Source: Streptomyces liliiviolaceus
Lineage (GTDB): Bacteria; Actinomycetota; Actinomycetes; Streptomycetales; Streptomycetaceae
Reading direction: 5' to 3'
Assembly (NCBI RefSeq): GCF_018070025.1
Contig: NZ_JAGPYQ010000001.1
Location: 8,308,001 to 8,372,000 of the forward strand
Length of the DNA: 64,000 nucleotides
A model generated the notes under the pieces. That model saw only the letters and a program-made list of their open reading frames with translations, had not been told where the DNA came from and ran no database searches. Below are positions 34,997 through 53,891 of the stretch, piece after piece (within the stretch, counting starts at the first letter, position 1; each line of letters starts with the position of its first letter). The position numbers and the translations under genes are program-made.

Positions 34997-35281
34997 GGTT
35001 CGAAGCGAGAGCCCAAGATCCACGTGATGGGGCAGCAGGACACGTGTCATCGTGCGTTCCTGGCACGGGGGTTCGGCCTTCCGAGGTCGCAGCCCTGAGC
35101 AGGCGCGTCCATTTCACATCGGAACCTCGCTTGTTTCCCGCCATTTCGAACGCCGAAACACGCTTTTCGATGTGACTTACGCGACGATGACCAGGCCCGG
35201 ACTGACCTAGCCGGTCCGGGGGGCGTAGCCTTTATTCCCGCTGTCCATCACCTTGTGAAGCGGAAGAGGGCGGTTGCCGCC
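34997..35281. promoter_or_regulatory. Control region of kgd
   Basis: The 285 bp hold no supported gene. A CCGGACTGACCTAGCCGGTCCGG stretch shortly before the gene contains short inverted arms (CCGG..CCGG), and TAGCCTTTAT at about 35226 could be a -10 region. The leader is short. Confidence 0.35.
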
Positions 35282-39231: not shown

Positions 39232-42200
39232 TCAGGTCGTCTGGGGCTCGAAGTTCCAGTACAGGCGTGACCGCTCCTCTGGCGCGGGCACCTGCTCGCC
39301 CCGCAGCGCCTGCCGGTCGGCGTCGAGGGCACGGCGGGCGCCCCGGGTCAGCGGATGTTCCTTCCCCAGGACCCGGCCGGCCCGCTCCCCCGTGTCCCGG
39401 CTCAGCGCGACGGCCGCTTCGACGCGGCCCGTGACATGGCGTATCGCGGCGGCGTTGACGGCGCAGCCGAGAGTCCAGGGGTGGTCGGGGCCGACGGCGC
39501 TCGTCATGTCGGTCAGGGCCCGCTCGGCCAGGGTGTGGGCCTGGTTCCGTTCGCCGACGGCCCGGAGGATGAGCGCCTGGTTGCTCCGCGCGCCCGCGAC
39601 GAACGGATGGTCCGCTCCGAGCAGCCGCAGGTACCTGGCGACCAGTCGCTCACTGAGCCCGCGGGCCCGGTCGATGTCTCCGTGCTCGCGCAGGAAACAA
39701 CTGTGGGCGGCCGCGAACATCAGGGTGGAGGAGTATCCCTTGCCGCGGACCTGTTCGCTCTTGGCGAGCACGGACCCGAAGAGTTCCCCCGCCGCCTCGT
39801 GGTCGTCCAGGCGGTACAGGCACTGGGCCAGGTTGTAGGAGGCCTGCAGGGTCTGGGGGTGGTCCTTGCCCAGGAGCCGCAGATGCTGCGCCGTGTTGGC
39901 CCGTTGAAGGTCCAGGGCTCGCTCGTAGCGGCCCAGGAGCCGCAGATCGGTCGACCGGGAGAGGTCGGAGATGAGCGTCCAGATGTGCTCAGCGCCAAGC
40001 ACTTCCTCGCGGATGCCGAGTACCCACCGGTCGATCTCCAGGGCTTCCTCGTACCGGCCGAGAAGCCTCAGCGAGGATGCCTTGTTGTTCTGCGCCGCGA
40101 GGGTCAGCGGAGCACGTTCGCCGCCGAGTTCCGTGTAGCCCGCGCAGACTTCCTCCGACAGGTGCAACGACTCCTCGTACCGGCCGAGAGCGCGCAGGTC
40201 CGCGGCGAGACTGCCGACCGCGCGCAGATACCGCTCGTCCCGTGCCCCGCCCTTCGCGCGGTGCTCCTCGACCGCCGCCCGGCTCACGGCCTCGCTGTCC
40301 TTGAACGCACCCATGATCCGGAGCAGGTTGGCGTAGTGGTGGCGGAGGTCCCACAACCGTTCGGAGTGCTCGTCCTCGTGGCCCTGCCAGGCCGCCAGAG
40401 CCTGTTCGGCGAACCGCACCCCCGTCGCGTGCTCACCCGAGAGGTAGAGGTAGCGAAGGCAGTTCAGGACGAGGCCCTGGACGGACGGGTCGGTGTGCGA
40501 CAGCAGTTCCGCGTGCTCCAGATGCGGTACGAGTTCGGCGTAGCGCTGCCACAGAGACGTCTTGCTGGGGTCGCCCGGATCGAAGGCGATCAGTACACGC
40601 CGGGCCGTTTCGGCGCACTCCTCGTGCTCCTCCGGTGACATGTCCAGCTGGACGGTCCGATGGACCATCCGGTGCAGGGAGAGGAACTCGTTCCGCGGGT
40701 CCTGTCGCGGATGCTCCACGTGGACCACCGAGTACTTCCGCAACCGCTCGACGGCGCGGTCCCAGCGGACGTCGTCCATGAGCAGCCCCGCCATGGCGGG
40801 CGGGAGTTCGCCGGCCGGTGCTCCTCGCAGCAGTCGCACGGACACCGCGTCGGGTGCGAAGAACGTGCACAGCCGAAGCAGTTGGACGGATTCCGGGGAG
40901 GTGGCGCGGAACTTGTCGAGCAGGACCGTCCAGGCGGTGCGGAAGGTCATCGGGAAGTCGGCCGACACCTGGACCGGGGTGCTCCGGTCCGCGTCGTCCG
41001 TCAGCAGTTCCCGGAGGTACTCCGACACGGGCATGCCGGACTCCTCCAGCCAGCCCGCGGTCTGGTCGAGAAGCAGCGGCAGGTCCCCCAGCGCCTCAGC
41101 CAGCTGGTGGGAGTCCTCCAGGGTCAGCCGGGGCGCGCGGCGCCGGATGAAGGCCACCGACTCCTCCCGGTCGTAGCCGGGAACCTCCACCAGGGTGCCG
41201 GGAGAGATGTCCCAGTCCAGGCTGCACGAGGTGACGAGCACATGACCGGTTCCGGTCGGCAGGAGGTCCCTGATCTCGTCCGGTTCGTCGGCGCCGTCCA
41301 GGATGAGCAGCCAGCGAGTGAAGGGCCGACCGCGCCTCAGTGCGTCCCAGACCGCGCGCAGCCGCTCGCCGTACTCCGCACCGGTCGCCAGTCCCAGCGC
41401 CGGGGCGAGTTCCGCCAGTCCCTGCCGGAACGCGGCTCGGTTACCGGAATGCACCCACCACACCACGTGATACCCGGAGGCGAAACGGTAGGCGTACTCG
41501 GCGGCCAACTGGGACTTGCCCACGCCCGACAGGCCGTAAAGGGTGACCCGGCTCTCGCGCTGGAGGACCTCGTACACCGTGTTCAGCAGTGGTACGCGCC
41601 CGGTGAAACGGTCGTTGCGTTCGGGCACCCGGCCCCACACGCGCAGGGTGTGCACCGGGAAGGGCGGTCCGGAACGGGTGTCCCGCGACGACTCGGGAGA
41701 GCTGAAGGGCAGATCGAGCCGGGCCAGAAGGCGCCGCTCCGCCTCCTCGGCGCCCACGTCGTGGAGGGTGACCGCGTCGAGCGAGGCGGCCGCCGCAGGC
41801 GGTAGGACGGAGGGGGCCACCGTCACCGCCGCGATGCGTCGCGCGTTCGGCGCCACGACCTCGCGCAGGGCGTCGTCCCACTCCTGGGACGTATGGGTGT
41901 CCAGTTTGAAGTACTGGTCGCTCAGGAGCAGCAGGACGGGCCCCGGAGCCAACAGGAGGTCACGGAGCGACTCCTCGATGGACGCGTCGGGCAGCGGATC
42001 CCACCGCTGGGGCACGACGCGGTGGCCGTGCAGCTCCAGACAGTGCGCGATCCAGGTGGCCCAGGGCCTGTGGACACCGGCGAAACTGAGGGTCACGGTC
42101 TGCCGTCCGGTGCGCAGCCGCCACGGCGGTCCGTTCGGCGGAACGAGTTCCGGCAGGTCGCCCGGTACGGCCCGGTGACCGGTCGTACGGTCGTCGTGCG

Positions 42201-42711
42201 CCGCGCGGCTCCCGGCCGCCGGCAGGTCGACGGACTGTTCCGACGTCCGGGGGGCGGGCAGGCTCTCGGTCGTGGAGGCCGGTTCCCGCAAGATGTCCGT
42301 CGATCGTGCGGCAGGTGCGCGGCCGGGCACGCGTTCCCTGATCTCTGACAGCAGCTCCGCCTTGCGGACCGGCACGCCCCACTGGTTGTTGACGGTCAGC
42401 CACAGCGACGCGTGGCCGGTCGCGCGCCCGGTCGAGACCCTGAAGTGGGCCGGTCCGTACGTACCGCCGAACCGGTGCAGGACGACGCTCGGTTCGTCGA
42501 GAGCGGTGCACACGAAATAGGGCGAGCCGTCCAGGGTGACGGTGAAGGTGAACTCCTCGTCCGGATAGGGCCAGTGACGGGCCGCTTCCTCGCCCTCCGG
42601 AAGAGGGCCGCGCAGGTCGACGGTGACCAGGTATTCGCACTCCGTCTCGGCGATCCGTGGCCAGGCCACAACGGGTTCGATCAGGAGGGTGTGCTCGTCG
42701 AGGTTCGTCAC
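39232..42711 (-). CDS. TIR-like / NB-ARC / TPR protein with extra N-terminal domain (paralogue 1)
   Basis: This is a STAND-type signalling protein of 1159 residues. Residues 1-205 form an extra domain I do not recognise (VVAWPRIAETECEYLVTVDL). Residues 210-330 are TIR-like: VTLSFAGVHRPWATWIAHCL, LLLLSDQYFKLD, then QEWDDALREVV, whose Glu may be the NADase residue. The NB-ARC follows: RFTGRVPLLN, the P-loop GLSGVGKSQL with Lys399, WLLILDGADEP, and LPLLLDQTAGWL. About ten tetratricopeptide repeats of roughly 42 residues fill the C-terminus (LLGRYEEALEIDRWVLG). The chain ends WNFEPQTT. The ATG overlaps the CHAT gene stop (ATGA), making this the last gene of a five-gene operon. Such proteins sense a ligand through TPRs and switch on an effector. 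Confidence 0.88.
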   Translation of the reverse strand: MTNLDEHTLLIEPVVAWPRIAETECEYLVTVDLRGPLPEGEEAARHWPYPDEEFTFTVTLDGSPYFVCTALDEPSVVLHRFGGTYGPAHFRVSTGRATGHASLWLTVNNQWGVPVRKAELLSEIRERVPGRAPAARSTDILREPASTTESLPAPRTSEQSVDLPAAGSRAAHDDRTTGHRAVPGDLPELVPPNGPPWRLRTGRQTVTLSFAGVHRPWATWIAHCLELHGHRVVPQRWDPLPDASIEESLRDLLLAPGPVLLLLSDQYFKLDTHTSQEWDDALREVVAPNARRIAAVTVAPSVLPPAAAASLDAVTLHDVGAEEAERRLLARLDLPFSSPESSRDTRSGPPFPVHTLRVWGRVPERNDRFTGRVPLLNTVYEVLQRESRVTLYGLSGVGKSQLAAEYAYRFASGYHVVWWVHSGNRAAFRQGLAELAPALGLATGAEYGERLRAVWDALRRGRPFTRWLLILDGADEPDEIRDLLPTGTGHVLVTSCSLDWDISPGTLVEVPGYDREESVAFIRRRAPRLTLEDSHQLAEALGDLPLLLDQTAGWLEESGMPVSEYLRELLTDDADRSTPVQVSADFPMTFRTAWTVLLDKFRATSPESVQLLRLCTFFAPDAVSVRLLRGAPAGELPPAMAGLLMDDVRWDRAVERLRKYSVVHVEHPRQDPRNEFLSLHRMVHRTVQLDMSPEEHEECAETARRVLIAFDPGDPSKTSLWQRYAELVPHLEHAELLSHTDPSVQGLVLNCLRYLYLSGEHATGVRFAEQALAAWQGHEDEHSERLWDLRHHYANLLRIMGAFKDSEAVSRAAVEEHRAKGGARDERYLRAVGSLAADLRALGRYEESLHLSEEVCAGYTELGGERAPLTLAAQNNKASSLRLLGRYEEALEIDRWVLGIREEVLGAEHIWTLISDLSRSTDLRLLGRYERALDLQRANTAQHLRLLGKDHPQTLQASYNLAQCLYRLDDHEAAGELFGSVLAKSEQVRGKGYSSTLMFAAAHSCFLREHGDIDRARGLSERLVARYLRLLGADHPFVAGARSNQALILRAVGERNQAHTLAERALTDMTSAVGPDHPWTLGCAVNAAAIRHVTGRVEAAVALSRDTGERAGRVLGKEHPLTRGARRALDADRQALRGEQVPAPEERSRLYWNFEPQTT

Positions 42712-44027
42712 GGACTCCCTCCCCAGGCGCTGTGCCCTTTCTCGGTGATGAGTCGCAGTGTGGTGAGCGGATGTCCGTAATACTGGAAGGCGAAGGCGTA
42801 CAGCAATCGCATGACCCGCTTTTGACCGACCTTGTCCACCTGACCGTCATCGTTGCGCGTTGTCGGGATCGCCGCCAGGGTGCCGAAGTCCTGGAGCGCG
42901 CCCTCCCGGAAGGCACGCAGCGTCTCCGGGACCGGTCTGTCGGGGCGGCCGGTCACCTCGCGCACCAGGCGCCGGATCAGTACGCGTGCTTCCTGGTTGC
43001 CGACCTCGCCCGCGGTGACGATGCATCCGCTCGCTCCTTTGCGCAGGAAGAGCTCGGCAAATCCTCTCAGCGCGTTCTCGCCCTGGCCCCGGTTGTCCAC
43101 GAAGCGTCCCGAGTGGCAGGCGTTGAGACACACCAGAGAGCGGTCCCTGTCCAGGACCCGCATGGCCTGGCTGTTGTACTCCGCCCAGGTGCGCTCCGCG
43201 AGCGTGAGGCGCATGACGGTGTCGCCGTAGGTGCCGTGGCAGCCCAGGTAGACCAGGCCGGTGGGATCCTCCTGCTCCGGGGCTTCGAGCGCCCGCAGGA
43301 AGGACGTCATCTCGGGGTGCGTCCGGTGGATGTACGGCGTGAAGACGTGGGAGTCGTCGGCCATGTCCCGGTGGAGATAGGCGAGGACGCTGCCGTGGCA
43401 TTCGCCCGTTGCGCGTGGCAGGCCCTGGCTTCCGTCGTGCACGGTGGTCCAGCGGGTCAGGACGAGCAGGGCGCCCAACAGGCCTCCCGGCAGCCCGTTT
43501 CCCCGGTCCGCGGGCACCCAGAACGCCTCCCAGGGCAGCTCGTAGCCCGTGTCGTCCCACACGATGAGGCGCAGCGCGGCGCCGTGCCGGGCGCGCGCCC
43601 GGTTGATCCAGTCCGCCAGTTCGGACTGGTTCCCGGACCAGTGCTGGATTCCCCGCAGGATCTCGGAGGGGTACTCCCCGCGCTGCGTCAGGTTGCCGAG
43701 GCCAACGGCCGGGGCGGTGAGCCGGGTCGGTCCGGCCGCGCAGGCGACCGTGAGGTCGCCGCACCAGCCCTGGAAGCGGTAGCCGTCCTGGCCTCCGATG
43801 CCGACGGCCCGGATCACCCGGAGAAGGGCGTATCCCTCGTCCAGACGTTCGTTCAGCCTGACGTCGGCGCCGCCGGTTCCGGTCGGGGCCTCCTGCGGGC
43901 GGAGCAGGTGAAGCATCGACGGGTGGTCGGGACGGATCGCGGTCTTGGGGCGGGGCAACGGCGCCCGGCGGATCACGTTGCCCGCTCCCGTCAGCCAGCG
44001 GGGGCCGCGCTGCGGCTCACCACTCAC
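42708..44027 (-). CDS. CHAT-domain caspase-like protease
   Basis: The 439-residue protein ends in a CHAT domain with the caspase-type dyad His264 in LVYLGCHGTYGD and Cys304 in LVCLNACHSGRF. Further core parts are GASGCIVTAGEVGNQEARVL and the terminal helix VMRLLYAFAFQYYGHP. The N-terminal 180 residues include RLIVWDDTGYELPWEAFW, a segment often seen before CHAT cores. CHAT proteases are known effectors of bacterial immune and death systems, for example in the CRISPR type III-E Craspase and gasdermin loci. Here it lies between a VWA protein and a TIR/NB-ARC/TPR protein, with ATGA overlap to the latter. The natural target is unknown. Confidence 0.88.
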   Translation of the reverse strand: MSGEPQRGPRWLTGAGNVIRRAPLPRPKTAIRPDHPSMLHLLRPQEAPTGTGGADVRLNERLDEGYALLRVIRAVGIGGQDGYRFQGWCGDLTVACAAGPTRLTAPAVGLGNLTQRGEYPSEILRGIQHWSGNQSELADWINRARARHGAALRLIVWDDTGYELPWEAFWVPADRGNGLPGGLLGALLVLTRWTTVHDGSQGLPRATGECHGSVLAYLHRDMADDSHVFTPYIHRTHPEMTSFLRALEAPEQEDPTGLVYLGCHGTYGDTVMRLTLAERTWAEYNSQAMRVLDRDRSLVCLNACHSGRFVDNRGQGENALRGFAELFLRKGASGCIVTAGEVGNQEARVLIRRLVREVTGRPDRPVPETLRAFREGALQDFGTLAAIPTTRNDDGQVDKVGQKRVMRLLYAFAFQYYGHPLTTLRLITEKGHSAWGGSP

Positions 44028-46026
44028 CGGCGTTTCCCCTCCCGTCCGCGTCCGGGCCCCTGCCGCCCTGCCCGTCGATCACGATGCCGCCCAGGGTGTC
44101 CGCCAGGGTGAACGGCAGGCTCCCGTACGGTTCGCGTCCCGCGTCGACCACGACGACCCGCAACCGCGTCCGGTCCATGGCCCTGATGTCCGCCGCGGCA
44201 CGCAACGCGTCCTCGACCCCCTCCGCTCCCACCGGACCGCTCAGCCTCCCGGTGTGGCTGGCCCGCAGCGGTATGTTGCCGCGGCCGTCCGTGACCACGA
44301 CCAGCCACGCCTCGGCGAGGCCGCTGCCGTGTTGCCGGAAGGCTCGGCGCAGGGCTCGCGCCGCCTGCTCGATGCCGTGGGCGAGCGGACTGGCACGGCC
44401 CAGGGGCCGGTACAGGGCCGCGAGCAGCCGTGGATCACGGACACTGCGCAGCGCGAAGGACTCCGCCCGCAGTTCGTCGGCCGCCTCGGCGCCGCCGATC
44501 TCCACGACGTGCACGGCGGCCCGCACGGTGTACGCCCATTGCAGGTAGGGGGCGAGGACGTCCTGCCAGTCCCAGTCGCCCCGGCACGTGTGGTCGAGGA
44601 CGAGTACGAGCATGCGCTCCGGTGCTCCGGCGCGGACATGACAGTGCAGGTCGGCGGCCGAGACCGTGAAGTGTTCAGCCCGACGCACGCGTTGGTGCAG
44701 GGCGGCTTCTCGCACGGTGCGCACGTAGGCGAGGTCGTTAAGGTCCCTGGCCCGTCGCGAGCCGATGACCACACCGCGCCGGGTGTCCGTTCCCGCCGTC
44801 CGCTGCCAGGGGCTGCGCAACGGGGCGAAGTCGCGCAGTACGCCGGCGCTGTCCTCGGGATAGGGGGTGGTGAGGGCGGTGGGAGTGCCGCCCGGTGCGC
44901 TACCGATGCCCTCGGCGGGTTCGGTTTCCAGCAGTGCCTGTCCGGCTTCGGCCCGGCGGCGCTCGGTCTGCTCGCCCTGCCCGTGTTTCCCGGTGTCACC
45001 CCGCGGTCGTGGGATCAGGCGCGGCGGGGGCGGTACGGCAGCCGCCGCGCCCGCCGCCGGCTCTGGCGCCCGGGGCGTGTCGGCCACGGCGAGACCCATC
45101 AGCCGCGCCGCGGCGTCGCAGTGTTCGACGCGCGCCGTCCCCTCTCCCTCCAATGCGGCGAGCGCACGGGCGAGCCGGGCCAGGGCGAGCTGCCTGCGCA
45201 CCCCCGTGTCCGGGCCGAGGAGACGGGCGACGCGCACGACGGTGTCGTCGGCGACAGCGACGGGCGGGGCACCGGTGTCGTCGACGGCACGGGCCGAGGC
45301 GGCGAGCCAGGTCGGCGGGAGGGCGCCGAGCAGCTGTTCGACGTCGAGGGTCGTGAGGCCCGCGACGGGCAGCCGGATGGCGAAACGGTCGAGCAGATGG
45401 TTGCTGATCCGGCCCGCGTCGGCCGAGCTGCAGGCGGCCAGCCAGCGGGCCCGGGGCCGGGCCTCGTGCCGCAGTCCCGCCTGTTCCACCACGGCCACGT
45501 CGGCGCCCAGCAGTTGGACCGCCCCGCGCATCCCGGCGACGCTGAGCCGGCACAGATCCGGTACGAGGACCACGGGCGGCGGAGCTCCCGTCCTGTCGTC
45601 CGCCTGGATGAGCGGACCCGGTTCGAGGCGGAAGGCGATGCCGTCCGCCTCCTGACGCAGCACGGGCCTGGTCCACAGATCCTCGTCGCGGCTGGTGGCA
45701 CCCAGGACGACCAGCGGGGCCCCCGGCTGCCGGGCACCGGCCAGAAGCCTGCCGAAGAGGCGGGCCACTCCATCGAGGAGCTGCGGCTCAAGGTCGAACA
45801 GCAGCACGCTGGAGAGCGCCGGGTCCACCGCGGCGCAGACGAGCGCTTGACACAGGCGCAGGGCAAGATCGTCCGGCTGCCCTCCCCGGCCATGTGGCCC
45901 GTGCGGCCCCCCGCTCGGCTCCGGTACCGCGCCGGAACGGGAACCAGGGCCGGTGTCGGCGCCGATACCGATGTCGAAGGCAGAACCGGTGTCCGGGGTG
46001 TCGCCGCTCGGCGGTTCCGTGGCCAT
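44017..46026 (-). CDS. BchD-like protein: degenerate AAA part plus VWA-like domain
   Basis: The chain of 669 residues has an N-terminal region like the Mg-chelatase D subunit without a Walker A motif (ALVCAAVDPALSSVLLFDLE, later NHLLDRFAIRLPVAGL and AALEGEGTARVEHCDAAARL). A Pro/Ala-rich linker and a C-terminal von Willebrand A-like domain follow (ERMLVLVLDHTCRGDWDW, AWLVVVTDGRGNIPLRAS, LRVVVVDAGREPYGSLPF). The MIDAS site DxSxS is replaced by DHTCR, so metal binding may be altered. It is encoded directly after the BchI-like AAA gene and overlaps the CHAT gene by 11 bp. The AAA/VWA pair probably forms a chelatase-like or MoxR-like remodelling machine; porphyrin chemistry is unlikely in this context. 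Confidence 0.8.
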   Translation of the reverse strand: MATEPPSGDTPDTGSAFDIGIGADTGPGSRSGAVPEPSGGPHGPHGRGGQPDDLALRLCQALVCAAVDPALSSVLLFDLEPQLLDGVARLFGRLLAGARQPGAPLVVLGATSRDEDLWTRPVLRQEADGIAFRLEPGPLIQADDRTGAPPPVVLVPDLCRLSVAGMRGAVQLLGADVAVVEQAGLRHEARPRARWLAACSSADAGRISNHLLDRFAIRLPVAGLTTLDVEQLLGALPPTWLAASARAVDDTGAPPVAVADDTVVRVARLLGPDTGVRRQLALARLARALAALEGEGTARVEHCDAAARLMGLAVADTPRAPEPAAGAAAAVPPPPRLIPRPRGDTGKHGQGEQTERRRAEAGQALLETEPAEGIGSAPGGTPTALTTPYPEDSAGVLRDFAPLRSPWQRTAGTDTRRGVVIGSRRARDLNDLAYVRTVREAALHQRVRRAEHFTVSAADLHCHVRAGAPERMLVLVLDHTCRGDWDWQDVLAPYLQWAYTVRAAVHVVEIGGAEAADELRAESFALRSVRDPRLLAALYRPLGRASPLAHGIEQAARALRRAFRQHGSGLAEAWLVVVTDGRGNIPLRASHTGRLSGPVGAEGVEDALRAAADIRAMDRTRLRVVVVDAGREPYGSLPFTLADTLGGIVIDGQGGRGPDADGRGNAGEW

Positions 46027-46035
46027 CCCTGTGCC

Positions 46036-46980
46036 TCAGCCGGTTTCGAAGAGGTCCCTGACACGGGCCTCGTCGTCCGTGGTCCAGTCGAACGTGCCGC
46101 CGTGGGCGGTCTCCGGCCTGCGGTGGCGGAACGCCATCGGCAGGACTCGCAGCAGATGACCGGGCTCCACGGTGTCCGCTCCCTCCAGGGCGGCCAGCGC
46201 GCGGGCCGCCAGCGTCGCGACGATCTCCCCGCGCTGCCCGACGGCCTCGACCCGCTGAGCCACCTGTGCGCACAGCTGGACCATCTCGTCCGGAACCTTC
46301 ATCGTCGCCACCCGGCTCCTGGCACTTTCCAGCAGGTCCCGCGTCGCGGTGTTGTCCTGCTCGGCCTCCTGGAGCCAGGGCGACTCCTCCTTCTGGTACT
46401 CCTCCTCGAAGGCCAGCACGGTCTTGATCGTCCGGTGCCGGGTCTCCGTGTCCTGCTGCTGGGCGGCGACCATGAGTCCGAACCGGTCGAGCAACTGCGG
46501 TCGCAGCCAGCCCTCTTCGGGGTTCATCGTGCCCACCAGACCGAAGGAGACATGTTTGGCGTCGGCCAGCCCCTCCCGCTGCACGGACAGGACACCCGTG
46601 GAGACGACATCGAGGATCACGTTGACGAGATGGTCGTCGAGCAGGTTGACCTCGTCGATGTACAGGAGCCCTTTTCCGGCCGCCTCTTCGAGGAGTCCCG
46701 GCTGCGGGCGGGCCTCGCCCCGCATCAGCGCCTCCAGCTCCCAGCCGCCGACCACCCGGTCGTCGGTGGCGTTGATGGGGAGGGTGACGGGCAGTTCCGC
46801 GTGCACCATCAGCGCGAAGGCCCGCACGATCGTGGACTTGGCGGTGCCCCGCGCGCCGGCCATCAGGACACCGCCGATGCGTGGCGCCACGTAGTTCAGT
46901 TCGAGCGCCAGCTTGAGGTCGTTCTGCCCCACCACACGGCTGTAGGGAAGGATGCGTATGGCTCCGGTCGTACGGCTCAC
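46036..46980 (-). CDS. BchI/MoxR-like AAA+ ATPase
   Basis: This 314-residue AAA+ protein is close in form to the Mg-chelatase I subunit. It has Walker A AGARGTAKST (Lys48), the insert ELEALMRGEARPQPGLLEEA, Walker B GLLYIDEVNLLDDHLVNVIL, sensor 1 FGLVGTMNPEEG, the arginine finger region RPQLLDRFGLMV, and a C-terminal lid helix ARALAALEGADTVEPGHLL. It should form a hexamer that acts with the VWA protein encoded next, 9 bp downstream. The GTG start overlaps the stop of the preceding small gene (GTGA). No chlorophyll or cobalamin genes are near, so a signalling or conflict role is more likely. Confidence 0.88.
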   Translation of the reverse strand: MSRTTGAIRILPYSRVVGQNDLKLALELNYVAPRIGGVLMAGARGTAKSTIVRAFALMVHAELPVTLPINATDDRVVGGWELEALMRGEARPQPGLLEEAAGKGLLYIDEVNLLDDHLVNVILDVVSTGVLSVQREGLADAKHVSFGLVGTMNPEEGWLRPQLLDRFGLMVAAQQQDTETRHRTIKTVLAFEEEYQKEESPWLQEAEQDNTATRDLLESARSRVATMKVPDEMVQLCAQVAQRVEAVGQRGEIVATLAARALAALEGADTVEPGHLLRVLPMAFRHRRPETAHGGTFDWTTDDEARVRDLFETG

Positions 46981-47384
46981 GAGTCGGTTCCCCCTCCGCT
47001 GCCCGGTAACGCCTCGACCGGGGCGGCGGTCCGCCACCGGAACGTGACCTGCAGCTGCGCTTCTGCCTTGCTGGTGACCAAGGCCGCCATGCCCGCGTCG
47101 ACCTTGATGGACAACTGCATCTCGATCTCGTCCGGTCGCAGATCGTCCGTCAGTTCGGCGAACCGGCCGACGGCCTGTGCGGCGCACCGCCGGGCCAGCT
47201 CCAGCCCGTCCGTGTACGCGTCACGGGCCACCTCCACGACACGCTGCGCGACCCGCCCTCTGACCTCCTCGTCGCCGTAGACGGCCGCGAGACCGCCATC
47301 GGCGTCCGGATCGAGGTCGACCTCAATCTGGACGGGGATGGGCCCGTCCGCGCCATCCGGTACGGGGCCCACTAGGATCACCAC
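46977..47384 (-). CDS. Trypsin-co-occurring-domain-like (Trypco1 / CU044_2847-type) small protein
   Basis: The 135-residue protein starts with a beta-rich part (IPVQIEVDLDPDADGGLAAV), continues with a long helix (AQRVVEVARDAYTDGLELAR), and ends in the strand pattern RPDEIEMQLSIKVDAGMAAL and AQLQVTFRWR. This resembles the small Trypco1 domain found beside trypsin-like, STAND and AAA/VWA conflict genes; the assignment is from recollected pattern. It is the first gene of the five-gene overlapping set. Its GTG start is followed by a second GTG. The function is unknown; an adaptor or sensor is plausible. Confidence 0.65.
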   Translation of the reverse strand: MVILVGPVPDGADGPIPVQIEVDLDPDADGGLAAVYGDEEVRGRVAQRVVEVARDAYTDGLELARRCAAQAVGRFAELTDDLRPDEIEMQLSIKVDAGMAALVTSKAEAQLQVTFRWRTAAPVEALPGSGGGTDS

Positions 47385-47489
47385 ACGTCCCCCCGGTGCA
47401 ACTGTCCTGTGCAGTACGGCTGTTGGGCGGGAACTGGCTTCATTCCCCGGCGTACATGGCGGTATGCGTCGAGGAGCCGACTTCCCGGC

Positions 47490-50400
47490 TCAGGTTTCCT
47501 GTGGTTCGAAGTCCCACAACAGACGCTCCCTACGGCGCGCCTGGACCGTGTAGGAGTGCTGGGCGCCGAACGCCGAGGTCAGATCGGACAGCGCCTCCTG
47601 CTCGACCTTCTCGGCCTGTTGGCCGCTCCTCAGCCCGCGCATGTCGTCGGCCAGGCCGATGCGGGCGAAGACCGTCAGCGGATGGGTCCGCCCCAGCGTT
47701 TCGGTGGCTTTGGTGACGGTGTCCTTGCTGAGTTCGGCGGCCGCGTCGAATTCGTCCACCAGTTTGCGCATCGCGGAGGCGTTCAGAGCACAGCCCAACG
47801 TCCATGGATGGTCCTGTCCCACCGCCGCCGTCATGTCGAGCAGAGCTTGCTCGACCATCGCGTGGGCCTGCTCGCGCTCACCCACGTCGGAGAGGATCAA
47901 CGCGTAATTGGCACGAGACCCCGCGATGTAGGGGTGTCCAGCGGGAAGCATCACCTCGTAACGGGCGATGACGGATTCGCTCACGGTGCGGGCCTCGTCG
48001 ACATTGCCGTGCCGGCGGGCGAAACAGCTGTATCCGGAGGTGACGATCAGCGTGGTCGGACTGGTTTCACCCAGCACGCGTTCGCTGCGTTCCCTCAAAT
48101 CAGCCAGAGCGGCGAGGAGTTGGTCCGTGTGCTCACGATCCCTTCCGCCGCTGCCATACGCGCAGAGAGCGTAGTTGTACTCCGCCAGCACAGTCACATA
48201 ATTGCCCGGCCCCACAGCCCTGCGCAGCTCGCGGACATTTTCTCTTTGAATCGATCCGGCTACTTTGTACTGACCCAGAAGACGGAGGTCCAGCGCGTGG
48301 TGGAATTCCGAGGACAGCGTTGACGGGTTCCGTGTGCTGAGGATCCGCCGCCGCTCCTCAAGCGTACGCCGGTCACATTCACGCGCCTGTTCATAGCGTC
48401 CCAGGAGCCTCAGAGTGACCGCCAGGTTGTTCTCGACGCGCAAGGTCGTCACGGAATCCGGACTCAAGGCGGCACGGCACGTCGGAACGAGCCACTCGCA
48501 GAGTTCCAGCGATTCCTCGTACCGGGCGAGTGCCCGCAGGTCCGCCGCCAGACCGCTGACCGCACGGATGTGCGCCAGGGACTCGGCGCCCTGGGCGTCC
48601 CTCAGGTACTCGATGGCCGACCGGGTGATGGCTTCCGAACGTTGGTACTCACCCACTCCGCGCAGCAGGTTGGCGTAGTGGTGTGCCACCTCCCAGACCT
48701 TCGGGTGGTTCTCACCGAGCAGTGAGCGCCAGGTGTCCATGGCGCGTTCACCGAGTTTGATACCTGCCACGTAGTCGCCGGACTGGTACATGTAGCGGAG
48801 GCTGTCGAGGACCAGGCGCTGTACGCCCCGGTCCTCGCTCATCAGCACATCCGCATGCTTGAGGTGCGGCACCAACTGGGCGTACTTCTCCCAGGAACGA
48901 ACGTCGTCCGGACTCCCGGGGTTTGCTGCTACGAGCGCTTGCCGCACCACGTCGATGAATTCCTGACGGTCTTGGTCCGGCATATTCTGGCGGACGATCT
49001 GATGAACCATTCGATGCAAGTAGAAAAGCCCTCCCGAGGTGCTGGCCTCATCGGAGTCCGCCGTCTGAAACTCCTCAGGGATGACGGAATAACGCCGCAG
49101 CTGTTTGACCGCCTTCTGCCACGCATCCGTGTCGTCCAGCAGTTCAGCGATCCGGTCGGGCACATGAACGGTCGGCATCTGCCGCAGTAGATCCACAGGG
49201 ATAAGACCCGGCGCGAAGAACGTACACAGCTGCAGGAGGTCGACGGATTCGGGCGCGGTCTCCCGGAGTTTGCCGAGAAGTATCGACCAGGACTGCTGGA
49301 ATGACATCCGGAAATCAGGCGATACCCTTACCGCACTCTGATCGACACTGCTCTCCAGCAGATCGATGTACTGCGTCACCGACATGTCCGAGTCGTTGAG
49401 CCAGCCGGCGGTCTGGTCCAGCGCCAGCGGCAGGTCTTCGAGCGCTTCGGCCAGTTGTTCCGCCTCGGACCAGGTCAGCCTCGGGGCACGACGGCGGATG
49501 AAGGCCACCGACTCGGTGCGGTCGTAGACCGGCACCTCCAGCAACTGGCTGTTGTGGTCACGCCATTGCGGGTTGCGGGACGTGATCAGTACATGGCCGG
49601 TGCCGGTCGGCACGAGGTCCGAGATCTCCTCCGGCTCATCGGCGCCGTCCAGGACCAGCAGCCAGTTGGCGTAGGGGTCGCCCCGACGCAGCGAGGTGCG
49701 CACCGCTCGCAGCCGCTCTCCGTAGTCGGCCCCCGTGGTGAGCCCGAGCTTCGGGGCGAGCTCCGCGAGGGCCCGCCGGTAGCCGGAGCGCTTTTCGGCG
49801 CGCACCCACCACACCACGTCGTACTCCAGCCGGAACCGGTATACGAACTCGGCGACCAACTGGGTCTTGCCCACCCCCGGCATGCCGTGGAAGGTCACGA
49901 CGCCCGCGCCCGGTTGCGCGTCCTGCAGCGACCGGTACGCGTCGTTCAGAAGTTTCTCCCGTCCGGTGAAACGGGTGTTGCGGCGTGGCACCGTCGGATC
50001 CCAGACCTCCGGACTGGCAGTCGGGAATCGCGGTGCCCGTCGTGCACTGTCGGTGGATTCCACCGGGGATCGGCCGAGCAAGTCCAGCCGGTCGAGAACG
50101 CGCCGCTCGGCCTCCTCGGCGCCCACGAACGTCAGATCGGTCGCGGCAAGCACCGTGGTGGCTGTCGGTACCGGCTGGTTGGTGACCAGGACGCCTGCGA
50201 ACCGCTCGGCCTCCGGCGCCACCACCTCACGAAGGGCCGTGTTCCATTCCTCGTACGTCCTCGGTCCGAGCTGGAAGTACCACTCGCTGACGACGATGAG
50301 GATCCGCCCCGGCGCGAGTCTCAGGTCCCGCAGTTGCTCCGCGAGCGGGACTTCGGAAGGCCCTTCCCAGCGCTGGTACACGACACGTTGCCCGTGACGT

Positions 50401-50519
50401 TCGAGCACGTAGCCGATCCAGGCCGCCCAAGCCCGGTTGTACCCGGCGAAACTTATGGTGACTGCCTGATTTTGGGCATGCCTGTCGGCCGGTCCGACCG
50501 GCGCACGGCTTTCAGACAT
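47490..50519 (-). CDS. TIR / NB-ARC / TPR protein, FxsT-like (paralogue 2)
   Basis: The 1009-residue STAND protein begins directly with a TIR-like domain (residues 18-140: AVTISFAGYNRAWAAWIGYV, ILIVVSEWYFQL, YEEWNTALREVV with Glu91 as possible catalytic residue). The NB-ARC follows (P-loop GMPGVGKTQL with Lys218, WLLVLDGADEP, LPLALDQTAGWL), then about ten TPRs and the C-terminus WDFEPQET. It matches the tetratricopeptide protein associated with FxSxx-COOH peptide systems. It is paralogous to the protein at 39232-42711 but lacks that N-terminal domain. A GGGGGAGG site precedes the ATG. It has its own candidate promoter, and more AT-rich codons (AAT, TAT) than its neighbours, hinting at transfer. 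Confidence 0.88.
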   Translation of the reverse strand: MSESRAPVGPADRHAQNQAVTISFAGYNRAWAAWIGYVLERHGQRVVYQRWEGPSEVPLAEQLRDLRLAPGRILIVVSEWYFQLGPRTYEEWNTALREVVAPEAERFAGVLVTNQPVPTATTVLAATDLTFVGAEEAERRVLDRLDLLGRSPVESTDSARRAPRFPTASPEVWDPTVPRRNTRFTGREKLLNDAYRSLQDAQPGAGVVTFHGMPGVGKTQLVAEFVYRFRLEYDVVWWVRAEKRSGYRRALAELAPKLGLTTGADYGERLRAVRTSLRRGDPYANWLLVLDGADEPEEISDLVPTGTGHVLITSRNPQWRDHNSQLLEVPVYDRTESVAFIRRRAPRLTWSEAEQLAEALEDLPLALDQTAGWLNDSDMSVTQYIDLLESSVDQSAVRVSPDFRMSFQQSWSILLGKLRETAPESVDLLQLCTFFAPGLIPVDLLRQMPTVHVPDRIAELLDDTDAWQKAVKQLRRYSVIPEEFQTADSDEASTSGGLFYLHRMVHQIVRQNMPDQDRQEFIDVVRQALVAANPGSPDDVRSWEKYAQLVPHLKHADVLMSEDRGVQRLVLDSLRYMYQSGDYVAGIKLGERAMDTWRSLLGENHPKVWEVAHHYANLLRGVGEYQRSEAITRSAIEYLRDAQGAESLAHIRAVSGLAADLRALARYEESLELCEWLVPTCRAALSPDSVTTLRVENNLAVTLRLLGRYEQARECDRRTLEERRRILSTRNPSTLSSEFHHALDLRLLGQYKVAGSIQRENVRELRRAVGPGNYVTVLAEYNYALCAYGSGGRDREHTDQLLAALADLRERSERVLGETSPTTLIVTSGYSCFARRHGNVDEARTVSESVIARYEVMLPAGHPYIAGSRANYALILSDVGEREQAHAMVEQALLDMTAAVGQDHPWTLGCALNASAMRKLVDEFDAAAELSKDTVTKATETLGRTHPLTVFARIGLADDMRGLRSGQQAEKVEQEALSDLTSAFGAQHSYTVQARRRERLLWDFEPQET

Positions 50520-50550
50520 GCAGCAGCCTCCCCCGCGTACATCGCGCGTG

Positions 50551-50578
50551 AGTCTATGACGCATGCAGGGATTGCCAA
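50551..50578 (-). promoter_or_regulatory. Candidate promoter of the FxsT-like gene
   Basis: On the minus strand TTGGCA and TAGACT are separated by 16 bp, a plausible vegetative promoter about 32 bp upstream of the ATG. The 210-bp gap to the HEXXH gene supports a separate transcript start. Confidence 0.4.
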
Positions 50579-50729
50579 CAGGGCTCATTAGGACGCGAGT
50601 TGGCGTGCCCGGGTATGCTGGGCGCACCCGCGAGCAATTCGCCCTATATGCACCATTCAATGGGTATTCGGACTGCGATCTTCACCCCTCCAAGAGACTG
50701 CGCGGCCTTGGGACACACCCGTGTTCCAC

Positions 50730-52238
50730 TCATTCGGCGGGCGTACGGCAGCGCACCCACCGCGCGTGGGCTGCACTCACGCGCTCCTCGGCACGGATCT
50801 GCATGCCCCGGGGAGGCGGTTCCTCTCCCATCCGCTCGCACGCCTCGGTCAGCCGATCGACCAGCAGACGTCCCTGCGCCGTGAGGGCGGTCGAGGCCGC
50901 GAGCACCGGCAGCGTCACCCTGACCTGCGCCCGATAGCGTGCGTGCTCGCCCCATGCGATGCTCCGTTGCTCAGGTCTCGGGGTGGCCGCCAACGCGCAC
51001 CGCTGGAAGAAATCCGCGAGCGCCACATGACTGTAGGCGCCCTGCAACAACCCGTCATAGGGCCTGGAATCCGGCCGCCACGGTGCGAAATATCGTTTTT
51101 GTGGCCCCTCCCGATGCAGCACGACCATGTCACTGAGAGCTGCCAGTTTGGCGTGCTGCACCTCGTGCACGAGAGTCGCTGCGAAGGTGGCGGAAGTGGG
51201 CGGCGTACTGCTGAGCACGGCCCCGAAAGCCTCCCTCCGGGTTCCGCTGCAGCTTCCCGTTCCCCCGTCGGGCGCCCCGTGGCCCGCAGGTGGGGCCAGA
51301 GGGACGAGACAGCGCAGTAGCGCGGCGACCTCCGCGACCCGGTGCTCACCGCCGAGTTGCAGGATCGAACGCACTCCCGCCCAGGAAGTCAGCCAACGCT
51401 CCCGTTCCGCCCTGTCGAGGGTGGCCGGACCACTCAACGCCTGGTGGCGGGAACCACCGTCCACCGTGCGATGCGGATCGAGATCGTCGAGAGGGACGGG
51501 AGCGGACTCGGGCAGCAGCCCGGGAAGAAGGTGAACCGGTCTCCAGGCGGTCGCGGCGGACCGGGTCGCGAATCCGGTCACAGGCGCGAGCCCGAGGCCG
51601 ACGCCGAAAGCCGTCAGGTCGTCCCGCTCCATCACGTCCACCACCACGTCGGCCTCACCGCGCCGGCGAAGTGTCATACGACCGTCCCGGGCCACCACCT
51701 CGACGTCTCCGCCGCCGATCGCGCCCAGCGCCCCCAGGGAGGGCAGCGCCAGCACTCCGTCATACGCGGACAGCCGCGCCGAGAACGGCACCCCGGCCCG
51801 TACCGCGGCCGCCGCGGCGAGCGCGCTGAAATAGCCGAGTTCGCGGCGCAGGGAGCGGGCCCGTCGCTGCCGCGCCGTGCGGGGAATCGTTTTCGTACTC
51901 AGGGCGCGCAGGCAGCCGCGGGCCCACGGGCCGACGAGCGGGTACAGGATCTGGGTACGGGCGGGAGAGTGCCTGACACTCTTTCCCTCACCCGGCGGCT
52001 CCTCCGCCTCACCCGCCCGGTCGGCCTCCTCCAAAAGCGCCCAGTCCGTTCGGAACCTCTGACGCAGCGCAGGCGGGCAGATCTCGGCATCGGCTTCCTC
52101 CACGACGTCCAGGACCGCACGGAGCAGAAGCAGGCGCCGCACCTGCTGATCCCTCACGAGGAGGGCCAGAGTGTCCGGGCCGCCTTCGGTGCGGCCCAGT
52201 TCGCTCAACGCCTGCTCCGGCAGTGGCGACGGGATCAA
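50730..52238 (-). CDS. HEXXH-motif putative peptide-modification protein
   Basis: The chain has 502 residues and carries the zinc-protease-like motif HEVQH (His358, Glu359, His362) in TLVHEVQHAKLAALSDMVVL. The rest is mostly helical with no membrane segment. This is the form of the HEXXH domain that accompanies or is fused to FxsB-type radical SAM enzymes in FxSxx-COOH peptide loci; its chemistry is not known. The TTG at 52238 is chosen: AGGAG lies 7 bp upstream, and earlier in-frame starts overlap the radical SAM coding region. The start lies in the second half of a 20-bp tandem duplication, 16 bp after the radical SAM stop. Confidence 0.83.
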   Translation of the reverse strand: MIPSPLPEQALSELGRTEGGPDTLALLVRDQQVRRLLLLRAVLDVVEEADAEICPPALRQRFRTDWALLEEADRAGEAEEPPGEGKSVRHSPARTQILYPLVGPWARGCLRALSTKTIPRTARQRRARSLRRELGYFSALAAAAAVRAGVPFSARLSAYDGVLALPSLGALGAIGGGDVEVVARDGRMTLRRRGEADVVVDVMERDDLTAFGVGLGLAPVTGFATRSAATAWRPVHLLPGLLPESAPVPLDDLDPHRTVDGGSRHQALSGPATLDRAERERWLTSWAGVRSILQLGGEHRVAEVAALLRCLVPLAPPAGHGAPDGGTGSCSGTRREAFGAVLSSTPPTSATFAATLVHEVQHAKLAALSDMVVLHREGPQKRYFAPWRPDSRPYDGLLQGAYSHVALADFFQRCALAATPRPEQRSIAWGEHARYRAQVRVTLPVLAASTALTAQGRLLVDRLTEACERMGEEPPPRGMQIRAEERVSAAHARWVRCRTPAE

Positions 52239-52271
52239 GAGGTGTCTCCTGGGATCAAGGGGTGTCTCCTC
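52232..52271 (-). repeat. 20-bp tandem duplication carrying ribosome-binding site and TTG start
   Basis: Two copies of AGGAGACACC(C/T)CTTGATCCC lie in tandem, differing at one base. Each has an AGGAG and a TTGA where a TTG start overlaps a TGA stop. The upstream copy ends the radical SAM gene; the downstream copy starts the HEXXH gene. A start at the first TTG gives only a seven-codon peptide. Confidence 0.85.
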
Positions 52272-53658
52272 CGGAGACGGTGCGCCCGGCGGGCGGACGT
52301 CCCGGCGCCGCCGCGGCGAGCCGGAGGGACACATGCCGGATGAATCGCTGCAGGTCGACGCAGTAGACGGAAGGGTGGGAGAAACCCTGCCCGGCGCGGT
52401 AGCGGTGCGCGTAGTTGCCGCCGCCGCAGACGGTGAGCAGGGGGCAGGCCCGGCAGCGGGTCGCCAGTGCGGCGGCCCCCGCCTGTCGTGCCATGACGCC
52501 GGGATGGCGCAGCGCCTCGTCGAAGCTGTTCCGGTGCACGTCGAGGCCGGTCCACGCCGCTCCGTCGTACGCCGACTTGAGGGAGTCCACCTGCTCGATG
52601 GAGCCGTCGGTCTCCACGACGACGGCGTCGAACGGAGCGAGCCCCAGCGCCTCCGTCACCGCGGGGAGCCCCATGAGCAGAGCCATGCACTCTTCGAAGA
52701 GGCGCACCCGGGTCTCCCTTCGCGGTCCCCGCCACCAGCGGTCGAACACGGCACAGAGCCAGTCTCCGTACGGTGTCGGTGCGTCGCGAGGGGTGTCGGC
52801 CTCCTCCGGTCCCAGTCTGAGGTACGGCGGCGGCGCCGACCAGTTCCCGTGCGGAAGCAGGAGGTCGAGGACCGGCGGGCGCAGGGCAAGCAAGGACTCG
52901 TAGACCTCGACAGGGGGTGTGGCAGGGTCCACGACGGTGAGAATCCCGGCGTACGAGTCCGGAAAGTGGTCGGCGAGCAGTCGGGCGCCGCGGACCGCGG
53001 CGGGCCAGGAGGGGCCGCCCCCGCGCGCCACCCGGAGCGCGTTGTGCGAGGGCAGGCCGCCGTCGAGGCTGATCCCGACGCGGATGTCCTGTCGGGCGAG
53101 CACGGTGAGCCGGTGCGCGTTCAGAAGGGTGGCGTTGGTCTGTACGACGGCATGCACCGTGCAGGAGCGCGGAACCCGGTCGCGCACGCTCTCGGTGAAA
53201 CGGGCAAGCGTGTCGGCTCCCGCCAGAAGGGGCTCTCCACCGTGCAGCACCAAGGACAGCGCGCCGAGCCCATGCGTCCTCGCATGTTCGGCGATACGGT
53301 CCGCCGTGCGTTCCAGCACCTCGGAGGACGCGCCGGCGGGGCGGTCGAGCCAGGAACGGTCCGGGCCCTCGTAGAGATAGCAGTACCGGCACGCGAGGTT
53401 GCATCTGCCATGCGCCTTGACGATGAACTGGCGAAAAGGTGCAGACGTGACCGGCGTCGATGCCGACACGGATCCCTGCAGGCCGTCCACCCGGCACCCC
53501 CAGCCGTCGAGTTCTTCCTCCGGTACCGCAGGCTCCCGCGGCTCCGTGCGCTCACCCGCGCCTCGTCGTCGGCGCAGCACGAGGTCAAGCCGCACCTCGA
53601 CCCCGCATTGACCGTCCGCAGCGCCATTACCAGCGCTTTCCCGGTCGCAAACGCTCAC
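52255..53658 (-). CDS. fxsB: FxsB-type radical SAM/SPASM peptide maturase
   Basis: The chain of 467 residues has the radical SAM cluster motif CNLACRYC (Cys86, Cys90, Cys93), preceded by FRQFIVKAHGR and followed by LSLVLHGGEPLLAG and VGISLDGGLPSHNALRVARG. It ends with a SPASM-like Cys cluster, CRACPLLTVCGGGNYAHRY. This is the FxsB pattern. FxsB, GrrM and XncB enzymes are known to make three-residue cyclophanes in short precursor peptides. The precursor gene lies 56 bp upstream. The start is uncertain: GTG at 53658 has no good ribosome-binding site, and GTG at 53469, preceded by AGGG, would remove 63 residues that homologues appear to lack. No RiPP recognition element was recognised. Confidence 0.9.
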   Translation of the reverse strand: MSVCDRESAGNGAADGQCGVEVRLDLVLRRRRGAGERTEPREPAVPEEELDGWGCRVDGLQGSVSASTPVTSAPFRQFIVKAHGRCNLACRYCYLYEGPDRSWLDRPAGASSEVLERTADRIAEHARTHGLGALSLVLHGGEPLLAGADTLARFTESVRDRVPRSCTVHAVVQTNATLLNAHRLTVLARQDIRVGISLDGGLPSHNALRVARGGGPSWPAAVRGARLLADHFPDSYAGILTVVDPATPPVEVYESLLALRPPVLDLLLPHGNWSAPPPYLRLGPEEADTPRDAPTPYGDWLCAVFDRWWRGPRRETRVRLFEECMALLMGLPAVTEALGLAPFDAVVVETDGSIEQVDSLKSAYDGAAWTGLDVHRNSFDEALRHPGVMARQAGAAALATRCRACPLLTVCGGGNYAHRYRAGQGFSHPSVYCVDLQRFIRHVSLRLAAAAPGRPPAGRTVSGGDTP

Positions 53659-53714
53659 CGGCCGAAGCTGTCCGATTCAACCGGCGGACCGGCCGGAACC
53701 GGCATCCCGTGCGG

Positions 53715-53891
53715 CTAGAACGCGTTGTTGAACCCCCACAGCATCTCGCTCGGCTGCTCCGCCCTCTCCCTGAGTTCGGCCAGAACCTCGGCCAGCACCG
53801 GGTGCTCGATCGTCCTCAACTCCGCGAGCCCCAGTGCGAGAAGATCCGGCAGCGGCTCCGCGGCCGTCTGCTCATCGTCCTCTGCGCCCAT
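53715..53891 (-). CDS. fxsA: FxsA-like RiPP precursor peptide with FxNxx C-terminus
   Basis: The 58-residue peptide has an acidic N-terminus, the leader-like segment LPDLLALGLAELRTIEHPVL and the C-terminal end SEMLWGFNNAF. FxsA peptides normally end Phe-x-Ser-x-x; here the last five residues are Phe54-Asn-Asn56-Ala-Phe58, so Asn stands in the Ser position. FxsB-type enzymes join the aromatic residue to the beta-carbon of the residue two positions on, so a Phe54-Asn56 cyclophane is the predicted product. The ATG has a G-rich GGAGGGAGGGAG run upstream. It is the first gene of the fxs cassette and is followed by fxsB on the same strand. Confidence 0.85.
   Translation of the reverse strand: MGAEDDEQTAAEPLPDLLALGLAELRTIEHPVLAEVLAELRERAEQPSEMLWGFNNAF

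Follow-up and report, generated by a model that had tools for sequence, protein, structure and literature searches.

The closest described relatives of the locus analysed here are the FxSxx cassettes with TIR-AP-ATPase-TPR genes that Kaur et al. (2020, eLife; PMC7159879) found coupled to AAA/vWA ternary systems. In the consulted parts of that paper, a peptide-processing system, for which a peptide toxin or signal is proposed, is present in about 20% of the actinobacterial VMAP ternary systems; the FxSxx type combines a radical SAM gene with a separate TIR-AP-ATPase-TPR gene, and chelatases are counted within the wider MoxR clade. A related block of nine genes lies on the minus strand at positions 39232–53891 of the window, by which we mean the whole analysed stretch of 64,000 nucleotides of Streptomyces liliiviolaceus DNA (contig NZ_JAGPYQ010000001.1, positions 8,308,001 to 8,372,000; genome 11.1 Mb). 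The genes are transcribed in the order fxsA, fxsB, aKG-HExxH, fxsT, Trypco1, AAA, vWA, CHAT, fxsT2. We read the block as a two-part immune-like operon, for conflict or cell death, in which FxsT2 would join a peptide half to a protease/ATPase half, and we give this reading slightly better than even odds, at roughly 55%.

The most telling part of the block, which the preliminary description had not singled out, is the head of FxsT2. The fxsT2 gene (39232–42711) encodes an Ig-like N-domain (ND), a Pro/Ala-rich linker, and TIR, STAND, and TPR regions. The ND (residues 1–130; 42322–42711) is a predicted beta-sandwich of approximately 130 residues without a Pfam match, and its gene segment directly follows the CHAT gene. 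Both FxsT2 and FxsT (47490–50519; TIR-STAND(NB-ARC)-TPR; start uncertain, reading frame open from 50660) exceed the FxSxx_TPR model (NF040586, 757 and 783 bits, respectively; cut-off 300) and match TIR_2 (51.0 and 61.4 bits). By the covariation of its parts with different halves (see below), FxsT2 is a chimera, with an ND head on an FxsT-type body. Elsewhere, ND is fused to trypsin plus EAD2, to caspase, and to VMAP-C, all parts of known conflict systems; the first database search for ND used the L038 protein as the query and covers only partners of about 270–860 residues in total.

In the Actinoplanes locus (L093), ND is fused to an FxsC-type TIR (NF040588, 142.7 bits; cut-off 130); across 210 residues, this TIR shares 70% identity with a second one in the locus (126.3 bits, just under the cut-off). 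A further FxsC-type protein (144.2 bits) lies there too, as do an FxsB-HExxH fusion (TIGR04269, 522.5 bits) and, nearby, a short frame ending in SAFQSAI, an FxSxx end. Since the body is FxsT in Streptomyces and an FxsC-type TIR in Actinoplanes, ND is joined to a copy of the local Fxs effector in two settings. In addition, an ND-like stretch (E 1.8e-7, 32% identity) opens a protein with a lipoxygenase Pfam label (P0041); this would extend ND well past the Streptomyces CHAT loci. The idea that CHAT cuts the ND-TIR linker at a conserved site was considered and rejected, the linkers listed varying in length and sequence when compared by eye. In Streptomyces niger, a third FxsT-like match follows FxsT2 (L084:16547-19168).

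A vWA profile applied to the GTDB species set gave 38 loci, a lower bound because the set was drawn from two peptide patterns; 34 belong to named Streptomyces and the others to 'Actinobacteria bacterium OK074', Actinacidiphila, Actinomadura, and Actinoplanes. Among the 31 named loci whose contigs reach far enough to either side, all nine genes lie on one strand in one order in 27, a recurrence that we judge to be beyond chance, and the second half (Trypco1 to FxsT2) adjoins an Fxs cassette in 30. Three of these 30 depart from the nine-gene order, namely two Streptomyces loci (L094, L097) and the Actinoplanes locus, which stands beside a canonical Fxs system; the Actinomadura locus (L085) has the second half, with no Fxs match in its 20 kb contig. 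A second FxsB-like gene lies between fxsT and Trypco1 in L037, L094, and L097, without an HExxH or kgd match, and several matches in L097 are broken across frames. The preliminary description had claimed nine one-strand genes with these domains, overlaps of 1–11 bp, and a real unit, the unity of which would be an accident of this strain if the two halves were rarely adjacent elsewhere. All nine genes are present with overlaps of 4, 11, and 4 bp (Trypco1/AAA, vWA/CHAT, and CHAT/FxsT2), and the adjacency just given is the rule.

The block is rare yet stable. A CHAT homologue occurs in 14 of 199 genus genomes (own included), comprising the full block in our genome and ten others, a contig-cut locus (L031), a two-FxsB variant (L037), and a locus of a different kind (L038); complete blocks thus number 11 of 199. 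At the class level, the CHAT protein is found in 3 of 394 genomes (own included) and ND in the same three, and within a 100-genome phylum sample ND occurs in our genome only. In one genome, CHAT and ND genes with equal scores lie near both linear-looking chromosome ends, as in terminal repeats (G049:C1:1888-2847 and 10674291-10675250). FxsB exceeds its cut-off in 123/199 genus genomes, and all 20 sampled unfused-FxsB loci outside the CHAT blocks lack the second half, so the first half must work alone; 15 of these 20 cassettes occupy the same site, convergent to kgd. The dependence between the halves is one-way, the second half nearly always having an Fxs partner while the reverse does not hold, and only in this direction does the proposed unity stand. 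Presence or absence of the second half requires 8 changes on the FxsB tree (64 rows; shuffled mean 17.9) and 8 on the kgd tree (57 rows; shuffled mean ~13.3); the states are mixed on both trees, so the second half comes and goes, mostly at one site. In one cassette-only locus (L043:11163-11453), a Trypco1-like stretch stands alone between fxsT and kgd, and its frame does not resemble that of a Trypco1 gene; this putative remnant hints at loss of the second half.

Covariation was assessed by partial correlations of identity distances with kgd as the sole ancestry control; kgd evolves slowly, so residual shared ancestry may inflate the values. Over the 32 loci with every family and kgd (L037, L084, and L094 dropped from 35), ND correlates with CHAT at 0.71 and vWA at 0.67, with FxsB at 0.16, and with the NTPase and TPR parts of FxsT at −0.03 and 0.04. 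The FxsT2 NTPase gives 0.54 with the FxsT NTPase, 0.36 with FxsB, 0.16 with CHAT, and 0.05 with ND, and the FxsT2 TPR part gives 0.64 with vWA, 0.51 with CHAT, 0.41 with the FxsT TPR, and 0.33 with FxsB. For pairs such as FxsB-CHAT, 36 loci were cut to 31 and 300 permutations were counted. Within the halves, the values are 0.77 (FxsB-FxsT), 0.54 (AAA-vWA), and 0.53 (CHAT-vWA); across them, in favour of a link between the halves, they are 0.23 (FxsB-vWA, 2/300 permutations as high) and, in the 32-locus set, 0.53 (Trypco1-FxsB) and 0.43 (HExxH-CHAT). Tight FxsB-CHAT coevolution was not found.

The trees, quick searches without a mixture model, show that the FxsT2 bodies are not monophyletic: 8 changes are required, and a forced clade costs 1027 log units (approximately unbiased test, p 1.8e-5), with 8 long cassette rows outside this clade test. 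In a tree from which 8 duplicate or short loci had been removed, the FxsT2 bodies of L082, L084, and L067 each stand as sister to the FxsT of their own locus. Identity between FxsT and FxsT2 of one locus averages 0.715 for the NTPase, versus 0.642 across loci (maximum of 2000 permuted means 0.669), and 0.543 versus 0.504 for the TPR part (maximum permuted 0.521); an FxsT2 finds its best match in its own FxsT in 16/35 loci by the NTPase and in 7/35 by the TPR part. Furthermore, exact DNA tracts longer than 100 bp are common to FxsT and FxsT2 in 5 of 42 loci with a repeat match (L032, 170 bp; L066, 129 bp; L067, 212 bp; L081, 107 bp; L095, 152 bp) and are shorter in the other matched loci; the lengths are within-locus comparisons without a cross-locus control. 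The long tracts in these five relatives point to recent gene conversion.

The peptide half begins with FxsA (53715–53891, ATG at 53891), a 58-residue predicted precursor of a ribosomally synthesized and post-translationally modified peptide (RiPP; TIGR04268, 37 bits; cut-off 28), the C-terminus of which, EMLWGFNNAF-COOH, is an FxNxx form of FxSxx. The core WGF[NDT]N[AS][FL] ends 30 of the 31 nine-gene rows (L084 ends in FNSAF), four rows being duplicate genomes and the leader pattern having missed some loci. As a hallmark of nine-gene loci, the core was rejected: it also ends L046, out of eight cassette-only rows, and L043 comes close, so it partly tracks ancestry. FxsB (52255–53490; start uncertain, frame open from 53658) is a radical SAM/SPASM protein of the cyclophane maturase type (TIGR04269, 409.5 bits; cut-off 370), with the radical SAM protein ChlB as the nearest solved structure (9gm3, E 1.1e-68) and CxxxCxxC in 41/41 CHAT-bearing loci with long enough matches, in counts that, here and below, include duplicate genomes. 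The aKG-HExxH-type peptide beta-hydroxylase (50730–52334, start uncertain) carries an HEVQH motif (TIGR04267, 157.9 bits; cut-off 40), and HExxH is found in 38/38 such loci. Its structural matches are 22nu, a chain named radical SAM core protein (E 1.4e-24), and ChlH (8s5f, E 5.1e-6). A cyclophane peptide is hydroxylated by ChlH, according to the part consulted of PMC12636437, and the FxsA peptide is probably hydroxylated by the aKG-HExxH enzyme. In the TIR domains, a Glu before Trp, the putative catalytic glutamate, is present in 37/37 FxsT, 35/40 FxsT2, and 12/16 cassette-labelled matched segments; a few loci are counted twice, the 8 loci dropped from the own-locus tree are left out, and contig-cut L069 is among the 16.

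The second half opens with the small Trypco1 protein of the CU044_2847 family (46977–47384; PF19493, 52.1 bits; cut-off 24.6). The AAA+ ATPase (46036–46980; AAA_5, 48.2 bits; cut-off 22) is of the BchI/ChlI type, matches the BchI structure (1g8p, E 2e-57), and has the Walker A motif GARGTAKS, a pattern found in 42/42 CHAT-bearing loci with long enough matches. The adjoining BchD/ChlD-like vWA protein (44017–46026) is without a Pfam match; only chelatase models matched, far below their cut-offs. Its N-terminal AAA part is degenerate (weak BchI match, 4.5e-4), and it carries the motifs LDHTCR and TDGRGN; the DHTC and TDGRGN parts of this signature are conserved, each in 47/49 loci by pattern; about 85 residues follow TDGRGN, without a Pfam effector or TPR match. 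A true magnesium or cobalt chelatase was rejected, the ChlI and ChlD equivalog scores being 231.5 (cut-off 466.95) and 64.4 (cut-off 499.55), and no BchH-type match was found among the nine block proteins. The CHAT protein (42708–44027; PF12770, 29.3 bits; cut-off 24) has a predicted structure with a mean pLDDT confidence of 76.9, the best matches of which are TPR-CHAT of Craspase (E 2.3e-12) and then separase. His264 and Cys304 are invariant in a 14-sequence alignment; the Cys is present in 50/50 CHAT-bearing loci with long enough matches (49 by pattern, L082 as LNVC), and the His also in nine loci that the His pattern missed.

Eight of the nine block proteins exceed curated NCBIfam or Pfam cut-offs, the exception being the vWA protein. 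AAA and vWA are separated by a 9 bp gap, the other junctions of the last five genes being the overlaps given above. Outside the block, the multifunctional 2-oxoglutarate dehydrogenase gene kgd (35255–39130, plus strand) is convergent to fxsT2 and marks the chromosomal site; it adjoins the block in 36/37 complete loci, and no kgd match occurs within about 20 kb in L093, L094, and L097. The other flank holds DUF4097, PadR, Clp_N, and malic enzyme genes, and the flanks on both sides look like ordinary chromosomal genes. A mobile island was rejected, tRNA genes being absent from the window and the site beside kgd recurrent. The frequent location of Fxs cassettes, which encode an enzyme of a 2-oxoglutarate-dependent family, beside a 2-oxoglutarate dehydrogenase gene may be a coincidence. 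Six pairs of named and unnamed loci are duplicates (L064 and L027, L065 and L028, L079 and L035, L080 and L034, L086 and L030, L088 and L031).

Compared with L026, the flank genes are 96% (PadR), 99% (kgd), and 86% (DUF4097) identical, and the block genes 65–89%. The closest named relative is S. dioscori (L060), with kgd 98% identical over the whole length and 99% in the C-terminal half; the block proteins are 99% (FxsA), 89% (FxsB), 73% (HExxH), 78% (FxsT), 89% (Trypco1), 91% (AAA), 80% (vWA), 82% (CHAT), and 74% (FxsT2) identical. Such divergence is compatible with a conflict role and is no proof of it, because DUF4097 in the flank diverges as well.

Several observations weigh against the reading of the block as an immune-like operon bridged by FxsT2. 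The partial correlations of FxsB with CHAT (0.08; 64/300 permutations as high) and of FxsT with CHAT (0.09; 61/300) are near zero, and AAA, vWA, CHAT, and FxsT2 occur in 0/20 sampled unfused-FxsB loci outside the CHAT blocks. The own FxsT is the closest FxsT in just 15/35 loci and ranks 32 for the window, where the longest exact FxsT/FxsT2 tract is 20 bp. The gain over the FxsT of the nearest relative is small, with means of 0.011 for the NTPase (23 up, 11 down, n=35) and 0.002 for the TPR part (13 up, 15 down, n=35). The putative TIR Glu is missing from 5/40 FxsT2 matched segments, and the metal-site motif of the vWA protein (DHTCR) is atypical. Flank conservation is non-uniform, DUF4097 lying within the range of the block genes. 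PADLOC-DB 2023 gave no full match, with weak, partial matches to RtcR-type (24.9 bits) and pVip (32.6 and 18.9 bits) components.

Among the alternatives, Streptomyces developmental or cell-cell signalling fares best and is nevertheless unlikely. In such a system, FxsA would be a hormone-like peptide read by FxsT, and AAA, vWA, and CHAT would form a proteolysis switch with no role against phages. The near-constant peptide core in nine-gene loci (30/31 rows), the usual site beside kgd rather than on a mobile island, and the 34 of 38 loci from named Streptomyces are in keeping with it; however, the patchy presence of the block (11 complete blocks in 199 genus genomes), the fast divergence of most of its genes, the shared FxsT/FxsT2 tracts, and the fusions of ND to trypsin, caspase, and VMAP-C suit a conflict system better.

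Less probable again are two independent systems, one for an Fxs peptide and the other a conflict system of chelatase and CHAT type, sharing a favoured spot beside kgd. The near-zero FxsB-CHAT and FxsT-CHAT values, the Fxs cassettes without a second half (20/20 sampled), and the Actinomadura second half without an Fxs match in its contig are what independence would leave. However, the second half lies by an Fxs cassette in 30/31 loci, three of them without a kgd match (L093, L094, L097), and the Trypco1-FxsB and HExxH-CHAT partials reach 0.53 and 0.43. Moreover, FxsT2 itself unites the ND head with an FxsT-type body, and its bodies, which form no single clade, have tracts in common with FxsT in five loci. 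Very improbable is a cluster for a secreted RiPP antibiotic that includes its own immunity genes. In its favour, a modified peptide would come from the radical SAM maturase together with the tailoring oxygenase, and the radical-SAM-made RiPP darobactin is an antibiotic (consulted part of PMC9055067). Against it, no transporter is among the nine genes, the peptide core is almost invariant, and several STAND, TIR, and protease genes have no predicted role in export.

Under the favoured reading of a two-part operon bridged by FxsT2, the FxsA peptide would be cross-linked by FxsB to form a cyclophane and oxidized by the aKG-HExxH enzyme. The FxsT receptor would most likely read the peptide or the state that the peptide reports, including its disturbance. 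The preliminary description had suggested that a modified peptide could be a signal, inhibitor, or effector, which stays a conjecture. In the second part, Trypco1 and the CHAT protease would accompany a chelatase-type AAA/vWA pair acting in remodelling. Between the two parts, FxsT2 may serve as a bridge: through ND it would work with the CHAT/AAA/vWA machine, and through its STAND NTPase it would co-assemble with FxsT. A trigger would lead to STAND oligomerization, upon which TIR could cleave NAD+ or make a signal; the AAA/vWA pair would activate or release the CHAT protease, which would then cut a target, and TIR and CHAT activity together would result in growth arrest or death. The sequences themselves give the gene content and conserved order, the catalytic motifs, the place of ND behind CHAT, the covariation of FxsT2 parts with different halves, and the DNA tracts in some relatives; modification and binding of the peptide, hetero-oligomerization of FxsT with FxsT2, a target for the protease, and immunity are what we infer.

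A more specific proposal, held tentatively, is that the block represents a new class of ternary conflict machine, combining a chelatase-type AAA/vWA pair with CHAT and using ND as a socket that wires a fused partner to the protease. The socket would be filled with a copy of the effector that the local peptide system uses (FxsT for Streptomyces and, for Actinoplanes, an FxsC-type TIR), the paired receptors would resemble plant NLR pairs, and the modified peptide would be a guarded or licensing ligand. Plant NLR pairs include a partner with an integrated domain. Should FxsT and FxsT2 act as sensor and helper, the block would be a bacterial paired-NLR design, the shared NTPase of which is partly homogenized by gene conversion. 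The block ties a genome-encoded, probably modified peptide to two NLR-like receptors, a caspase-like protease, and a chelatase-type ATPase. Because the fusion protein points to a machine with which they may act, the purpose of the widespread FxSxx peptides would become testable, and ND, having no Pfam match, is a marker for a broader group of conflict-type proteins (fusions with trypsin, caspase, VMAP-C, and TIR).

Compared with known systems, the magnesium chelatase BchI/BchD has the same type of AAA/vWA pair, whereas the block scores far below the equivalog cut-offs. TPR-CHAT (Csx29) of Craspase and separase have in the model a CHAT-type fold and a His/Cys pair in common with the block CHAT, whereas identity in the top fold matches is 11–14%, no Cas-type gene is among the nine, and the partners of the block CHAT are a chelatase-type ATPase and an ND protein. 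The FxSxx-COOH system of NCBIfam is represented in the block by FxsA, FxsB, and FxSxx_TPR models over cut-off; FxsC was not found among the nine proteins (NF040588 and TIGR04276 at E<=0.001). In its canonical form, this system has a fused FxsBH, FxsC, and KGGVGR-AAA-FxsT, whereas the block has unfused FxsB and HExxH, a TIR on FxsT, and an extra five-gene half. A canonical FxSxx system of this composition is also present in our genome, on contig C3 of 92.9 kb (L039, 8000–27999); there, FxsBH and FxsC flank a frame for an AAC(3)-like acetyltransferase (119 bits; cut-off 270).

With the FxSxx systems of Kaur et al., as far as the consulted parts of PMC7159879 describe them, the block has in common an FxSxx-like precursor, a radical SAM-SPASM protein, an HExxH zincin-type protein (a peptidase in Kaur 2020, now named an oxygenase), a downstream TIR-AP-ATPase-TPR gene, and an AAA/vWA pair; Trypco1 is also among the domains of that work. 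The block thus has the combination by which FxSxx peptide processing is recognized, that is, precursor, HExxH, radical SAM-SPASM, and downstream TIR-AP-ATPase-TPR. Membership in the VMAP ternary systems, on the other hand, was rejected on four features. VMAP-C (PF20028) was not found in a Pfam scan of the nine proteins or, at E<=10, in four proteins or parts, the same library finding it in L085 and P0011. The gene order is Trypco1-AAA-vWA-CHAT-FxsT2 instead of VMAP-MoxR-vWA, and the MoxR motifs WxhapG and PsWRxa are absent, as simplified patterns, from the first 80 residues of the AAA protein. In VMAP systems, vWA is followed at its C-terminal side by effectors, which in the FxSxx type are TPRs, whereas the block vWA is without recognized ones. 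The main text of PMC7159879 nowhere uses the word 'CHAT', its consulted parts contain no Ig-like head, and a literature search thin on subscription journals found no closer published precedent. The preliminary description had regarded the combination as an undescribed variant; the coupling of FxSxx, TIR-AP-ATPase-TPR, and AAA/vWA was already in PMC7159879, whereas the chelatase-type AAA/vWA pair, CHAT, and ND are new. Beyond the Kaur systems, the block has a chelatase-type AAA/vWA pair, a CHAT protein, and a second TIR-STAND-TPR protein with an Ig-like head, and, judged from predicted domains, what sets it apart from Kaur 2020 is an operon in which no VMAP is found, the AAA/vWA pair is of the chelatase type, and FxsT2 is chimeric.

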